A DNA stretch of 64,000 bases from a virus: positions 32,971 to 96,970 of the IMG/VR virus record IMGVR_UViG_3300048777_000091, one strand, 5' to 3'. A model generated the notes under the pieces. The model saw nothing but the letters and a program-made list of their open reading frames with translations. It made no database searches and had not been told where the DNA came from. A program made the translations under genes and the position numbers. Shown here piece after piece: positions 45,277 to 63,393 of this stretch (the first letter of the stretch is position 1; every line of letters starts with the position of its first letter).

Positions 45277-45389
45277 TACTTTTTCTTCGGCTTCTTCTTG
45301 GTCTTCGGTCTGGGTTTGGTTCCGTAGTAGACAGCGGTCGTGCTGGGAAGTGCGGCGGACGTTACTGCTGAGGCGGGGCTGGCGGGCAT
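45276..45389 (-). CDS. Small Lys-rich protein, 37 aa
   Basis: ATG 45389 to the TAATG at 45276. Short Ala/Ser/Pro start and very basic tail (KPRPKTKKKPKKK), suggesting nucleic-acid contact. Part of a chain of five coupled small genes (44838-45529). Weak. Confidence 0.4.
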   Translation of the reverse strand: MPASPASAVTSAALPSTTAVYYGTKPRPKTKKKPKKK

Positions 45390-45529
45390 GTGGGCTCCAA
45401 AAGTTTTTCTGCTTCTTCGAGATATTCTTCGCACTGAGAACAAGTACAACCGCAATCTTCGTCGAGCCAAAGGTGGACAAGGAACCGAAATCTCTCGCAG
45501 GCTGACTTGTATTTTTCTAGGTCGGTCAT
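45362..45529 (-). CDS. Small Cys-rich acidic protein, 55 aa
   Basis: ATG 45529 with GGAGA upstream. The C-G-C-T-C-S-Q-C cluster near the middle suggests a zinc-binding knuckle within an acidic helix. It overlaps the GIY-YIG gene end by 4 bases (ATGA). Confidence 0.5.
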   Translation of the reverse strand: MTDLEKYKSACERFRFLVHLWLDEDCGCTCSQCEEYLEEAEKLLEPTCPPAPPQQ

Positions 45530-46332
45530 GGGGTCTCCACGTTCTTGACTCGAATTTCTTGTTCGGGGCCGAAGCCTACGCGGTTTGATAGCTGGTAGCC
45601 CAAAGCGACCGGGGGTTGCTGGAAGGAATCGAGAGGGAAAGTTGCTCTTCGGCGATCCCAAGCTCTCTCCATACTGGCTTTAATCTTAGCCTTGGTCTCT
45701 TCCGTCTGTTTTGTTCCCAGTTTGTGGTTTCCGGTGTGGTTCTTGGCGATGTTCGCTCGTCCTTCGGGAGTATGATGCTTTCCCGTATTAGCGGCGGACA
45801 TGCGGGCCGCGTACTCGGGGTCTTTCCATCTTTCTTTGCATTTGTCCCCGATTAACTTCTTAATTTCATCCGTGTGGGGTTGACCCAGGTCGTGGCGACC
45901 AAACATCGGGTTGCGCTCCCCGACTAAAAGACCTTTACGGGATTCTGAAGCTCGCTTCTTGTTCTCGGGGTTCTGCCACCACTCTTTGCTCTTCTTTGAA
46001 ATCTTAACTTTGTTCTCTGGGAGGTGTCTACCAGCCCGACCACCCAACATTCTGTTATATCCAACAGAGGGGTCGGTGGCATTAAAATGAGCGATGTAGA
46101 AGGTTTCGAGTTCGTTGCCCTCTTCTCGACTGGGCGCCTCGTCTATTTTCTCAATAACGAAGGAGTCTTTTCCGTGGTCTCGAATTGCTTGGTGAAAATC
46201 TTGTGGGGCCTTCTTAACGAGGGCGTCGTACAAATGACGACTCCAACGCCTCCGCAGAATCTGTACCGTCTGCCCGACGTAGATAATACCGTTAGTCGAG
46301 TCTGTGACTTTGTAAATGCTTACTGTTTCCAT
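45526..46332 (-). CDS. GIY-YIG homing-type endonuclease with NUMOD3-like repeats, 268 aa
   Basis: The N-terminal GIY-YIG module reads SIYKVTDSTNGIIYVGQT, with the conserved Arg in RRRWSRH and a later Glu (NELETFYI). The C-terminal half has several NUMOD3-type DNA-binding repeats (NPMFGRHD, AANTGKHHTPEGRANIAK, GNHKLGTKQTEETKAKI). It starts 51 bases after the last capsid exon and behind its own promoter-like site in intron 5, so it probably homes into or near the capsid gene. Confidence 0.85.
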   Translation of the reverse strand: METVSIYKVTDSTNGIIYVGQTVQILRRRWSRHLYDALVKKAPQDFHQAIRDHGKDSFVIEKIDEAPSREEGNELETFYIAHFNATDPSVGYNRMLGGRAGRHLPENKVKISKKSKEWWQNPENKKRASESRKGLLVGERNPMFGRHDLGQPHTDEIKKLIGDKCKERWKDPEYAARMSAANTGKHHTPEGRANIAKNHTGNHKLGTKQTEETKAKIKASMERAWDRRRATFPLDSFQQPPVALGYQLSNRVGFGPEQEIRVKNVETP

Positions 46333-46383: not shown

Positions 46384-49114
46384 TTACCGTCTGATTCGAA
46401 TCTACTTGTATTATACCACACTTTCATGCTTCTGCAACAAGTATTTTCGAACTATTTTCGTCCTAGCTGGACGATGTCTGCGCCTGAATACGCTGTCTGT
46501 TACCCGTTTAGAATCAACGGACTGACTCATTTCTGGTCAGTTCATACGGTTTTCTTTCCCGTATGGTCGGACTATTGCATGTCCTTTCGGACCCACTTCG
46601 CTTAGTCTCTCAGCCTGCTTTCGCTTGGCCCTCCTTGGCATTTCAGCGTCGGAGTCAATCAGAAGGGGTTTATCCTGCGCCGTTGTGTTAACGCAGTGTC
46701 ATTGTAGAACCCGGCGGCTCTGTTACCTCGTCCAGGTAATGGACGCGGGCAAGTCGTTTCTGTTCCGCTTGCCTCATACGGTTCGTTTCCCGTATGCCCA
46801 GACTGTTGCATACCCTTTCGGGTCTTCTTCGCTCAGTCGTTCACGGTCTCTTTCGAGTTCCGCCTCGTTGGCATTTCAGCGTTCGAGTCAATCAGAAGAA
46901 GTTTTACCTGCGCCGATGTTTTAACGCAGTGTGTTGGTGTAGCGAACGTTGTAGCTCACCCACGGAGACTACTTACATCAACTTTGTTGTCGGAGGCTGG
47001 GTTTGGTCACCACCGATTTGCCGAGCGGGGTCAGAACTGGAACCCTGCTCAGGTGCGCTCTGGATAAACAGCTTGTAGTTCTTGCTGTTATCATTCGGGT
47101 TTTTGCCCAGGAAAACGCTGAAGATCGCGTCTTCACCGAAAATATAAGTGTTATAAACTCTCTGTTAACTGCTGTGTTATCAGCAAGATACGTCATTTCT
47201 GCGTATCTCTCATACTTCATTTCGTATGAGAACGGACTATCGCATCGTCCATTACCTGGACGCCCCATCGTTTAGTCTCTCACGGTCCCTTTCGGGTTCC
47301 GCCTTGTTGGCTTCTCAGCTTCCAAGTCGATTAGACGGGGTTCTCATTCGAGGGTTTCACCTCGATGACGCCTACATTATTGACGTGTTGCCACTTATAG
47401 TCACGGTCGGAGCAGTTGTGGTTTGTTTGAACGTTACGCCAGCGAACGAGATAACATCCTCGTTCTTCGGCAGTTCAAACAGCATGGAACGCATGGAGTC
47501 GTCGCGCTTGATGATGTCGGACAATCCGTTGAAGGACGTGTCGTTCAGGATGTCGCGGACCACTGACGGGTGAATGATTCCGCCAAATTTGTTGTCCACG
47601 AGCGGACGTGCGTTCACGGCTACCAGGGACTGAGCGGCGGAACGAACGTTGTTGGCCGTCAGGTAGGAACCGTTTGCGAGTTGAATGTTGACCAGGTTGT
47701 CAATCGCAACAGCCGAGTCAGCGGTAAGCTGGACAAGGGTGTTGAGGGTGAGGGCCAAGCGGTAGTTCAACTCATTTGCGAGATTCTGGAGTAGACCGGG
47801 GTCGTCGATTGCGACATCAAGTGCGAGGTCGCTAGAATTTATAAAATCGGCGTATTGCCCAATTGTGGCCAAAATCTTGTTGCTGGATTCAGAGATCGGA
47901 CTTCCGACAGTGCCTTCTGCGGACTGGTTCAGGTTAGCGGAAAGCAGTGCGTAGGTGTAGACTTTATGTGTTTAGGCCGTCAGCATCTCTGCTGGGGCGC
48001 TCTCGTCGTCGCCGACGAGAACAGGCTGTGTCTTCGGATTATTGAGAAAACGAATTGCATCGCACAACTTCTTACGAAGCTCCCTATTTGGAGTTCTTGG
48101 AAGACGGACAAGCTCTAGAGCTATCTTGGCTTGCGGCCTCTTTGTTCTCAGGTAGGGTAGCACTTGGAGTAGAAAACTTTTGCGGTTCTCTTTTCCGGTG
48201 AGTTCCCAAGTGTAGAACTCTCTGGTGTTTCCTTTGGCTTCTTGCGTGTGAAACCACCCGCCGTACAACCGCAGAAACAACTGGATAAGAGGGGCATAAT
48301 TGTTGCCCATTCTAATTCGTAGCATCGGTTTACCGTCAGGAGTAAAAGCTGCTGATATGCAACCTTCGCCGTCCATGATTCCGGCCACGTATGCGTGCGT
48401 TAGTTTGTCTTCAACAAACCCGTCTAGCGTGTCAGTCGTTACGCATTCCCTGTTTTTCATCCCCCGGATTTTGTCCATCAACTCTTTGCGTTTCGATGGG
48501 TTCTGCTGATCGCCGAGGTCGTAGAACTCCTGAAGTACCAGAGCCTCTTCCTTTTTGATTCGCAGATACGGAAGGATATAAGAGAGAAATTGTGGGGCGG
48601 CATTCCTGCCGTTGATGTTCCACTGATACCAAACTTGGCCGCGTGCTGGCGTGTGCTTGGTGTAGAAGCCCCCAAAAGTTTCGACTAGCCCCTTTACCAG
48701 GGACAGTTCAACGCTGCTCATAACGATTCTAGGTTGGTAAGGAGTTGCTTTTCCGCCTTCTTTTACAGTCGGCTTGTATATCGAAAAGCACCCTTCCGCG
48801 TCCATCAAACCAGCGGCGTAGGCTTTTGTTCTTTCTCTCATAGGGTCTTTGCTCGGCATTGTCTGCTCCAATTATTATACTACCACACCGATAGTATTTT
48901 GTCAAGCAGATTTTCACCGATTTAGCTAGATTTTAATTCAGCACCATAGATACTGAATCTGGTTGCCTTGGCGCAACGGCAGCGGACGCTGCTTGGTCAT
49001 GCTAAGGAATGGAGTGTTTGCCTTCAGGTTAGGAATTGCTTCCCGCTCGTAGTGAATTGCTACCAAGTTGGGGAGAGCGCCCGAGGTGACTATACTGGCT
49101 GGTGAATAACTCAT
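46384..49114 (-). CDS. Major capsid protein (N4-gp56 type), six exons, 326 aa after splicing
   Basis: Exons on the minus strand: 49114-48943, 47961-47383, 47157-47009, 46962-46924, 46714-46691, 46401-46384. Joined they keep one frame and give 326 residues with features of the N4-gp56 capsid family (FYTYALLSANLNQSAEGTVG, GGIIHPSVVRDILND, FKQTTTAPTVTISGNT, FYNTYIFGEDAIFSVFLGK, DPARQIGGWVSYN, ending RIRR). Every 5' junction follows T and every 3' junction follows G, as in group I introns. Exon 5 is only 24 nt (PGSTMTLR) and exon 6 encodes five residues. Without splicing the longest intact part is 193 residues. It lies downstream of scaffold and portal, as expected. Confidence 0.82.
46410..46437 (-). 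promoter_or_regulatory. Promoter-like site at the end of intron 5, for the GIY-YIG gene
   Basis: On the minus strand TTGCAG, 16 bases, TATAAT (46410-46415), with GTGTGG before the -10. It is placed about 75 bases before the GIY-YIG start, so the endonuclease could be expressed independently of the capsid transcript. Confidence 0.5.
46460..46472. repeat. Deleted variant of the 15-bp repeat in capsid intron 5
   Basis: GTCCTAGCTGGAC: both arms are kept and two core bases are missing compared with the 41394 copy. It suggests decay of a former site. Confidence 0.55.
46715..46923 (-). ncRNA. Group I intron 4 in the capsid gene, 209 nt
   Basis: Same P1 as intron 5 (CTGCGT with GCGCAG, U-G at the site). 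P7 has a compensatory change relative to its neighbours (GACTG/CAGTC instead of GACTA/TAGTC), strong evidence for a real helix. The 3' domain contains an exact 15-bp repeat (46730-46744) in a peripheral stem. The intron ends in G. No ORF. Confidence 0.78.
46730..46744. repeat. 15-bp repeat in the 3' domain of capsid intron 4
   Basis: GTCCAGGTAATGGAC on the plus strand, in a peripheral stem 3' of P7. It occupies a different structural place from the copy in intron 2. Confidence 0.85.
46963..47008 (-). other. 46-nt intervening gap in the capsid gene (intron 3 position)
   Basis: The conserved capsid text reads DPARQIGG before and WVSYN after this stretch. Reading through it meets a stop (TAA) and its length is not a multiple of three. 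Its borders follow the T...G rule of the other introns, but 46 nt cannot hold a group I core. It contains a small CAAC/GTTG hairpin. It could be an intron remnant, a bypassed segment or an assembly deletion. Confidence 0.65.
47158..47382 (-). ncRNA. Group I intron 2 in the capsid gene, 225 nt
   Basis: P1 pairs exon ACGT with GCGT (U-G at the splice site). R element CCGTGAGAGACTAAAC and S element GCGATAGTCC give P7 (GACTA/TAGTC). The P8 position between them holds an exact 15-bp repeat (47247-47261) whose GTCC/GGAC arms can close the helix. Ends in G. No ORF. Confidence 0.78.
47247..47261. repeat. 15-bp repeat in the P8 loop of capsid intron 2
   Basis: GTCCATTACCTGGAC on the plus strand, between the R and S elements of the intron. 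Its arms can form a 4-bp RNA stem. It shows the element tolerated in, or selected into, a ribozyme loop. Confidence 0.85.
47972..48859 (-). CDS. LAGLIDADG homing endonuclease, 295 aa
   Basis: Two LAGLIDADG helices mark a single-chain enzyme: AYAAGLMDAEGCFSIY near the N-terminus and AYVAGIMDGEGCISAAF near residue 150. Each is followed by the usual beta-sheet DNA-binding half. ATG 48859 is chosen for the GGAG just upstream, and a TTG at 48871 is less likely. Encoded inside the first intervening element of the capsid gene; expected to cut capsid genes lacking the element and so spread it. Confidence 0.88.
   Translation of the reverse strand: MPSKDPMRERTKAYAAGLMDAEGCFSIYKPTVKEGGKATPYQPRIVMSSVELSLVKGLVETFGGFYTKHTPARGQVWYQWNINGRNAAPQFLSYILPYLRIKKEEALVLQEFYDLGDQQNPSKRKELMDKIRGMKNRECVTTDTLDGFVEDKLTHAYVAGIMDGEGCISAAFTPDGKPMLRIRMGNNYAPLIQLFLRLYGGWFHTQEAKGNTREFYTWELTGKENRKSFLLQVLPYLRTKRPQAKIALELVRLPRTPNRELRKKLCDAIRFLNNPKTQPVLVGDDESAPAEMLTA
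48877..48905 (-). promoter_or_regulatory. Promoter-like site for the LAGLIDADG gene
   Basis: On the minus strand TTGACA (48900-48905), 17 bases, TAGTAT, overlapping a TATAAT shifted by three bases. The spacer ends in GTGTGG as at the other candidates. The predicted start lies about 10 bases before the GGAG-ATG, giving a very short leader. Confidence 0.5.
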
Positions 49115-62702: not shown

Positions 62703-62784
62703 TGGAGCGGAAGACGGGATTCGAACCCGCATGTCAAAGACAGTTGCTTGGAAGGCAACGGCTCTACCACTGAGCGACTTCCGC
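62703..62784 (-). tRNA. tRNA-Gly(TCC)
   Basis: Acceptor GCGGAAG/CTTCCGC, D-arm GCTCAGTGGTAGAGC, anticodon stem GTTGC/GCAAC with loop CTTCCAA, T-arm GGGTTCGAATCCC, encoded CCA. The variable region can form a small TGTC/GACA hairpin, longer than usual for Gly. Confidence 0.85.
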
Positions 62785-62792
62785 ATGAAACT

Positions 62793-62866
62793 TGGTAGGC
62801 GACTGTGGAATCTAACCACAATGACACCCCTATCGAGGGTGCGTCCTAACATTGGACGAGTCGCCC
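62793..62866 (-). tRNA. tRNA-like, probable tRNA-Ile(GAT), unusual loops
   Basis: Acceptor GGGCGAC/GTCGCCT, D-stem GTCC/GGAC without the usual GG in the loop, anticodon stem CACCC/GGGTG with loop TCGATAG (C instead of the near-universal U33), T-loop TTAGATT instead of TTCGATT, encoded CCA. It folds but deviates at several conserved positions, so function is uncertain. Confidence 0.55.
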
Positions 62867-62871
62867 GTAAA

Positions 62872-62947
62872 TGGTGTGGTCGGCAGGACTCGAACCTGCG
62901 GTGAACTGGGTGTAGGCCAGCCGATTTAGCCGCTAATCTACGACCAC
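62872..62947 (-). tRNA. tRNA-Val(TAC), C at position 33
   Basis: Acceptor GTGGTCG/CGACCAC, U8-A9, D-stem GATT/AATC, anticodon stem GCTGG/CCAGT with loop CCTACAC, T-arm GCAGG/CCTGC with TTCGAGT, encoded CCA. Position 33 is C where T is expected. Confidence 0.7.
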
Positions 62948-62952
62948 AGAAA

Positions 62953-63027
62953 TGGGGCGCGTAGCCGGAATCGAGCCGACATTCTGACCTTCGGAGGGTC
63001 GAGTTCTGTCCGTTGAACTATACGCGC
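62953..63027 (-). tRNA. tRNA-Arg(CCG)
   Basis: Acceptor GCGCGTA/TACGCGC, D-arm GTTCAACGGACAGAAC, anticodon loop CTCCGAA with normal U33, T-arm GTCGG/CCGGC, encoded CCA. Confidence 0.85.
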
Positions 63028-63031
63028 AAAC

Positions 63032-63107
63032 TGGAACCGACCACGGGACTTCAACCCGCATCAACTTCGTTAGGACCGAAGGGCTCTGTGCATTGAGCTA
63101 AGTCGGC
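63032..63107 (-). tRNA. tRNA-Arg(CCT)
   Basis: Acceptor GCCGACT/GGTCGGT with wobble ends, D-arm GCTCAATGCACAGAGC, anticodon stem CTTCG/CGAAG with loop GTCCTAA, T-arm GCGGG/CCCGT, encoded CCA. Confidence 0.85.
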
Positions 63108-63111
63108 GAAA

Positions 63112-63186
63112 TGGAAACCCCATCCGGAGTCAAACCGGAATCTAACGAATAGAAGCCGTTGCTCTCTTCCCTTGAGCTATGGGGTC
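63112..63186 (-). tRNA. tRNA-Arg(TCT)
   Basis: Acceptor GACCCCA/TGGGGTT, D-arm GCTCAAGGGAAGAGAGC, anticodon stem AACGG/TCGTT with loop CTTCTAT, T-arm TCCGG/CCGGA, encoded CCA. Third Arg tRNA in the array. Confidence 0.85.
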
Positions 63187-63192
63187 AAAATT

Positions 63193-63268
63193 TGGTGCCT
63201 CGCCAGGGAATTGAACCCTGTCCAATCGGCTTAAAAGGCCGTTATGCCAGCCATCACACTCACGAGGC
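63193..63268 (-). tRNA. tRNA-Lys(TTT)
   Basis: Acceptor GCCTCGT/GCGAGGC, anticodon loop CTTTTAA, T-arm CAGGG/CCCTG with TTCAATT, discriminator A and encoded CCA. Confidence 0.85.
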
Positions 63269-63316
63269 AACGTTTGTCGTCCTCGGATTTTCGACTTGTC
63301 ATAACGTCCTCCAAAA

Positions 63317-63393
63317 TGGTGGGTCGCCAGGAACTCGAATCCTGCTCTGTCGGGTAAGAACCGACTGCTTCAAACCATCAAAGCTTGCAACCC
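63317..63393 (-). tRNA. tRNA-Lys(CTT)
   Basis: Acceptor GGGTTGC/GCGACCC, anticodon stem GTCGG/CCGAC with loop TTCTTAC, T-arm CAGGA/TCCTG with TTCGAGT, discriminator A and encoded CCA. The 48-base spacer before it (63269-63316) shows no further gene. Confidence 0.85.

Follow-up and report, generated by a model that had tools for sequence, protein, structure and literature searches.

We analysed a stretch of 64,000 nucleotides (nt) from a soil virus, bases 32971-96970 of the 97-kb record IMGVR_UViG_3300048777_000091 (hereafter, the window), with attention to its capsid gene, which lies on the minus strand, starts at 49114 and is interrupted by five insertions. Group I introns occur in phage genes, as in td, nrdB and sunY of T4. 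The new part here is an insert of 46 nt (46963-47008, minus strand), which carries a guide with P1 and P10 strands and a final G but no catalytic core. It appears to be a group I mini-intron that has no core; the closest kin described so far are in fungal ribosomal DNA (rDNA).

The structure of the gene was determined by spliced alignment to an uninterrupted relative, L004, with a U before each insert and a G at its end rewarded but not required. Four uninterrupted relatives (L002-L005), 90-93% identical, served as the source of the true protein. The alignment placed inserts after codons 54 (990 nt), 247 (225 nt), 297 (46 nt), 310 (209 nt) and 318 (198 nt), and the joined product has 327 residues followed by a TAG stop. 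An earlier note on this DNA, made from the sequence alone, had described a capsid gene split by five insertions, and the alignment confirms it. The U...G rule it had invoked holds as well, in an alignment that favoured but did not force it: all five exons upstream of a join end in U, and all five inserts end in G. The exons, all on the minus strand, are 48952-49114 (163 nt), 47383-47961 (579 nt), 47009-47157 (149 nt), 46924-46962 (39 nt), 46691-46714 (24 nt) and 46463-46492 (30 nt, including the stop codon). Most of these boundaries had been proposed before, but the uninterrupted relatives correct two of them. Exon 1 had been ended at 48943, which is 9 nt too long; its true end is 48952. Because relatives read GNQIQ-FYTY across this join, the residues YLW are intron. 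The last exon had been placed at 46401-46384 and is in fact 46492-46463, as seen from the ends of the relatives (TLRRLQSETSSS) and of the window's own protein (TLRRIQAQTSSS). The 24-nt exon described as extremely short is therefore right, but the 18-nt one was misassigned.

With these joins the five-insert gene is real. The same 46-nt insert with the same exon spacing is present in L014-L016, contigs from three other samples, and an assembly error is thereby excluded. No intact second capsid gene was found in the 97-kb record; the other capsid-like match was a single 32-residue similarity (E 0.012). The N-terminus of a downstream open reading frame (ORF; PASPASAVTSAALPSTT..., window ~45290-45385, minus strand) resembles the capsid N-terminus with E 0.012. 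The "N4-gp56-like" label given to the protein was not borne out. Pfam has no family for the joined protein, matches among PDB sequences to capsid proteins were weak (E of at least 0.1), and the family matched by the protein of a relative is PHROG 1357 (major head protein, E 3.3e-18). From these joins we infer that capsid production would depend on serial splicing.

The phage family is intron-rich in this gene. Spliced alignments were made for the window and 85 loci (batches of 23, 41, 8, 11 and 3, some contigs appearing twice), and insertions tallied over them fall at about 40 codon positions, identical inserts being counted once. Five insertions had been called remarkable; L038 and L212 each have nine in one capsid gene, so the window is not extreme. 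L028, partial and misaligned, was left out. Also uncounted were short inserts in L083 (site 302) and L092 (site 152), fragments of misaligned introns (L083 at 298, L033 at 259), contigs apparently starting within an intron (L112, L148, L162), and in-frame stretches of 24-30 nt in distant capsids or at a contig end (L220, L224, L226, L228). At codon 152, an in-frame 27-nt difference in L092 (5153-5179) and L228 (2628-2654) was aligned as an intron and has no guide pairing. Some long introns end in A and not in the near-universal G: after codon 72 in L025, L034, L080 and L097, after codon 185 in L027, L030, L035, L037 and L117, and after codon 40 in L083. Their boundaries are backed by the exon reading frame and by P10 (L027, by eye). 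The closest phage record, Tunturiibacter phage Tunturi_3, has an uninterrupted capsid gene and is 37% identical. A word search of the isolate's paper (PMC11924767) found no mention of intron, major head or mass spectrometry. Relatives also lie on three genome contigs, from metagenome-assembled genomes assigned to Sulfotelmatobacter (76%), Acidobacteria (69%) and Bacteroidetes (35%).

The identity of the longer inserts was examined with a covariance model, R1, built from 13 aligned cores with the structure written by hand. Introns 2 (47158-47382, 225 nt), 4 (46715-46923, 209 nt) and 5 (46493-46690, 198 nt), all on the minus strand, possess a P3-P7 core with the P7 pseudoknot and P8, have U before the 5' site and end in G. 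R1 scores them at 116, 107 and 101 bits, respectively, all three being training sequences of the model. Across the 13 cores, both-sided changes occur at 7 of 7 pairs of P3; P7 is paired in 100% of cells, but four of its five pairs are invariant. Core covariation and the model together support the assignment of these three inserts as group I introns. A covariance-model search, which the earlier note had proposed, gave a divided answer: Rfam had no group I match to any insert, at gathering score or with E up to 10, but R1 finds cores in the 225-, 209- and 198-nt inserts on which it was trained. On the window and the whole record R1 gave just these three matches, all within the capsid gene. On 46 related loci, of at most ~13 kb each, it gave 75 matches at E <= 0.05, all in the capsid gene and on the sense strand as judged by a coordinate check. 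Of 121 introns of the family, 74 can form both P9.0 pairs, against 23.8 after shuffling. Introns 4 and 5 are alike (87% over 70 nt and 78% over 58 nt); this region (window 46555-46932) looks like diverged copies, and the last exon bases ACACTGCGT precede both.

Intron 1 (47962-48951, minus strand, 990 nt) is filled by a LAGLIDADG endonuclease ORF of 299 residues (47972-48871, minus strand; PF00961, E 3.7e-08). Its P1 (AUUCAGU/GCUGAAU, by eye), P3 strands and P7-like element make it likely a group I intron, with P7 strands that would be GACUG and CAGCC and contain one A-C mismatch. The S strand of this P7 recurs in L007 and L036, and a promoter-like TTGACA...TATAAT lies between P3 and the ORF (by eye). 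The view that all five inserts are group I introns is thus supported for three and likely for the 990-nt one; it finds no support for the 46-nt insert, if that is taken as a self-splicing intron of the usual type.

That insert belongs to a recurrent class. Eight sites of the capsid gene carry such mini-introns, 21 distinct ones in all, with lengths of 32-59 nt: two each after codons 29, 40, 92, 185 and 310, one each after codons 32 and 268, and nine after codon 297, where they measure 40-59 nt (32-52 nt elsewhere). All 21 have a P1 with U.G, an adjoining P10 and a final G. In the window, P1 has 8 positions with one U-U, and P10 has 5 bp at zero offset, the mini-intron's ACCCA facing UGGGU, the first bases of exon 4 (shuffle p 0.018). 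About 27 nt remain beyond the guide, with no R1 match; since this leaves no room for a core, the insert is not a complete group I intron. In all 18 mini-introns first scored, P1 covers 7-9 positions and has U.G at the cut, whereas P10 starts from the first base of the 3' exon at zero offset, in a scoring that permitted P10 offsets. Their shuffle p values are 0.0005-0.018, which is optimistic because the rows are related by descent. Two alignment artefacts scored in the same table (L083 site 302, L092 site 152) fail the guide test, and where G was not required opposite the U, it was present in 19 of 20 rows. At site 297 the two helices co-vary by eye: UCGGUGGU/GCCUCCGA goes with UGGGU/ACCCA, GGAGGGU/GCCCUCC with GGGUU/AACCU, and AGGUGGAU/GUCCACCU with GGGUAA/UUACCC. 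Both P1 and P10 also fit in three variants that came to light once this rule had been set: L212 and L196 (p 0.0002 each, the L196 row not being blind since its boundary was shifted by hand before scoring) and L244 (scored without a shuffle p). DNA-pattern scans for site 297 matched 58 and 34 stretches. Rescanning these 92 left 21 past the filter, of which 18 were capsid genes with eight variants, all already known, and three were chance matches. The pattern is blind to variants such as that of L070. The rescan omitted L118, L130, L155 and L162, and spliced alignments of their contigs have no mini-intron at 297.

The 3' half of a mini-intron also tends to pair with the exon bases just beyond the P10 partner, as with TGAGTTAA/TTAACTCA in L092 and TCTTTTCTC/GAGAAAAGA in L090. 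Over the 21 mini-introns this third helix has a mean score of 17.05, against 11.06 after shuffling (highest of 200 shuffled means, 12.19). Outside it, no hairpin of at least 4 bp can form in 15 of the 21; one is possible in the other six, and the window's mini-intron has a single such hairpin, of 4 bp. RNAfold was applied to three examples. P1 was in the best fold of all three and the third helix was clear in two, whose folding energies are unusual (z -2.6 and -2.4); that of the window is ordinary (z 0.15). By ordinary group I anatomy, the third helix would stand where P2 does and its loop would contain the 3' site, so that a mini-intron may act towards the next core as a substitute P1-P2.

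The coding sequence behind the mini-intron argues that it does not interrupt the protein. Over 36 lineage pairs, codons behind the site-297 mini-intron differ synonymously 641 times and non-synonymously 50 times; in the 60 codons before it the counts are 1125 and 204. The exons behind are thus under protein selection, and the insert must be removed or skipped. Based on this conservation, we consider it very probable that the mini-intron is excised from RNA. The joined exon sequence at site 297 is present in 61 stretches, a count that speaks neither for nor against a cDNA. The uninterrupted 2-kb L005 is no proof of a spliced copy, because it shares no more than 83% DNA identity with any gene it was aligned to.

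Since the 46-nt insert is without a catalytic part, it probably depends on the ribozyme of a neighbouring insert. A longer intron lies downstream of all 20 mini-introns that have downstream sequence (21 in total), within 52 nt in 17. A mini-intron is never the last insert of its gene (p 0.002 under random order), and an intron lies upstream for eight of the first 18. R1 finds 13 of the 20 next downstream introns. The base before the final G is the same as in the next intron in 13 of 17 cases (shuffled p 0.001), compared with 2 of 8 for the upstream intron. In 9 of 20 cases the first core downstream allows both P9.0 pairs, against 5.2 when shuffled (p 0.010); upstream cores do so in 3 of 31. 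In the window, GG in J7/9 of intron 4 can pair with the CC that precedes the mini-intron's final G. Downstream cores thus appear to fit the mini-introns by P9.0, and upstream ones mostly do not.

Several observations weigh against this assignment. The next intron is 151-182 nt away for three mini-introns, and the seven downstream introns missed by R1 are ORF-bearing, 642-990 nt long and accepted on P7-like motifs. Both P9.0 pairs are no less frequent with introns further downstream (8 of 15), and the pairing therefore does not single out the nearest core. Four of the first 17 mini-introns (L012, L036, L070 and L083) have no P9.0 pair with the nearest intron, that of L012 fitting its second downstream intron; the ends of those in L036 and L244 fit an upstream core instead; and none of the three later-found mini-introns has both pairs. 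The third helix taken alone reaches p < 0.05 in just 10 of 18, with p 0.49 for the window's own, and shared descent makes the shuffle p values in general optimistic. Support for which core acts is accordingly modest and mixed, and we rate excision by a downstream core at even odds or marginally higher.

Taken together, these observations lead us to propose the following. The capsid gene of this phage family accumulates group I introns, some of which would retain only the substrate half: the P1 guide with U.G at the cut, the adjoining P10 strand and the final G. The core would come from a different intron in the transcript, in all likelihood a downstream one, which in the window would be intron 4 (46715-46923). 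This lent core would dock the mini-intron's P1/P10 and, via P9.0, the bases before its final G, and the mini-intron would leave the RNA through the two usual group I steps. On sequence grounds we slightly favour this account, in which mini-introns are core-less group I introns that borrow the core of a second intron, most likely a downstream one, for their excision. Its strong form is a natural spliceozyme, in which one group I core removes both its own intron and an upstream core-less mini-intron through the latter's guide, and to this we give an evenly balanced chance.

Alternatively, the mini-intron could be a stand-alone minimal ribozyme that splices itself with the aid of flanking exon RNA, as claimed for the 67-nt PaSSU intron of Phialophora; we regard this as unlikely, though the best of the rivals. 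Its strength lies in the small introns of fungal small-subunit (SSU) rDNA (PaSSU and its kin, and those of Arthonia and Porpidia), which are 63-78 nt long and, in the accessible part of the source, share with the phage mini-introns a P1 with G.U at the 5' site, a P10 and a helix between the intron middle and the 3' exon (PMC3160393). One of them was reported to splice in vitro with ~300 nt of flank (PMC3160393). As the phage mini-introns have no room for a core, so the fungal introns are described as without P3-P6 and P8 (PMC3160393). However, the fungal introns reportedly have a P7 with the guanosine site, which phage mini-introns mostly cannot form, a hairpin of at least 4 bp being possible in just the six noted above. 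The last base is U in the fungal introns according to the same text and G in 21 of 21 phage mini-introns. The fungal introns are located in rDNA and are held there to have a single origin, whereas the phage mini-introns occupy eight sites of a capsid gene and are 32-59 nt long. Self-splicing also leaves the constant downstream longer intron (20 of 20) unpredicted, a trait that sets the phage mini-introns apart from the fungal ones. Compared with their fungal kin, then, the phage mini-introns are recurrent and shorter, and wherever downstream sequence exists a longer intron comes after them. The plan had been worked out here before it was met in the fungal introns; this agreement adds to its credibility and takes away from the novelty of the class.

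A somewhat more doubtful possibility is removal in trans, by a core or protein that is independent of the downstream neighbour. Degenerate group I introns of lichens are thought, in the part of the source available, to depend on machinery not yet known (PMC8527467), and the equal P9.0 fit of introns further downstream (8 of 15, against 9 of 20 for the nearest) is what such a reading would allow. The tight spacing (17 of 20 within 52 nt) and the few fits to upstream introns by P9.0 (3 of 31) speak instead for a nearby downstream core.

It is improbable that the mini-introns are decayed remnants in broken capsid genes. They are without a core, and at sites 32, 40, 185 and 310, half of the eight, other relatives hold long introns; because these share the same codon, mini-introns may derive from long introns by deletion. 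Against decay stand the synonymous excess behind the mini-intron, the pairings maintained despite base changes, the recurrence of the same insert in several samples and the lack of a second intact capsid gene in the record.

Ribosomal bypassing, in which the ribosome hops across the insert, has very little to recommend it. The bypass element of T4 gene 60 is likewise ~50 nt inside a phage coding gene with a hairpin at its edge, and matched take-off and landing codons are expected of such an element. The mini-introns resemble it in length, in a hairpin at the 5' edge and in a first-frame stop codon inside the insert, and the two triplets are identical in L036, while in five further rows of site 297 both encode Gly. 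However, 20 of 21 mini-introns have no matched codons and have group I guide pairing instead; a hop landing on Gly at site 297 would lose Trp298, which is invariant in 11 of 11 aligned relatives; and P10 and the final G would be left unexplained. A plain frameshift over the 46 nt is ruled out, as the first-frame stop precedes the stop that opens the second frame (by eye).

The proposed excision by a lent core resembles engineered systems. In spliceozymes and trans-excision-splicing ribozymes, one core excises a segment between two sites of another RNA, with P1, P9.0 and P10 used for recognition (PMC4094466), the same job as proposed here. As far as the accessible text goes, those designs derive from Tetrahymena or fungi and have the guide on the ribozyme, whereas in the phage the guide would lie in the mini-intron and the system would be natural, though putative. 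Among phages, Jug phages have introns of ~200 nt with homing endonucleases, 37 of the 76 predicted ones being seen as spliced in RNA reads, and the accessible part of that paper mentions no mini-intron (PMC12363816). In the family described here, by contrast, a single structural gene has as many as nine insertions, and core-less mini-introns occur. No natural phage case of a core-less mini-intron was found among the literature matches listed on phage capsid group I introns, trans-splicing and mini-introns, nor among those listed on spliceozymes, P10/P9.0, Phialophora and lichen degenerate introns, a search whose coverage mostly excludes subscription journals.

To our knowledge, there is no other natural case of a group I core serving another intron; if the proposal is true, this would be the first. 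It would offer a possible explanation for the removal of small group I introns that have no core, a puzzle in fungal rDNA, and would mean that such introns arose and persisted at eight sites of one gene. It would also be a step toward shared splicing within a small phage system, a group I parallel to the loss by spliceosomal introns of their own catalysis for a shared one. Rfam detected neither kind of insert here, and gene-finding software would take the capsid gene for a broken one.

Directly behind the capsid gene lies a free-standing GIY-YIG homing endonuclease gene (45526-46332, minus strand; PF01541, E 1.9e-09), which is a possible homing partner. Farther away, eight tRNA genes are clustered on the minus strand (window 62703-63393), six of which reach the Rfam gathering score.

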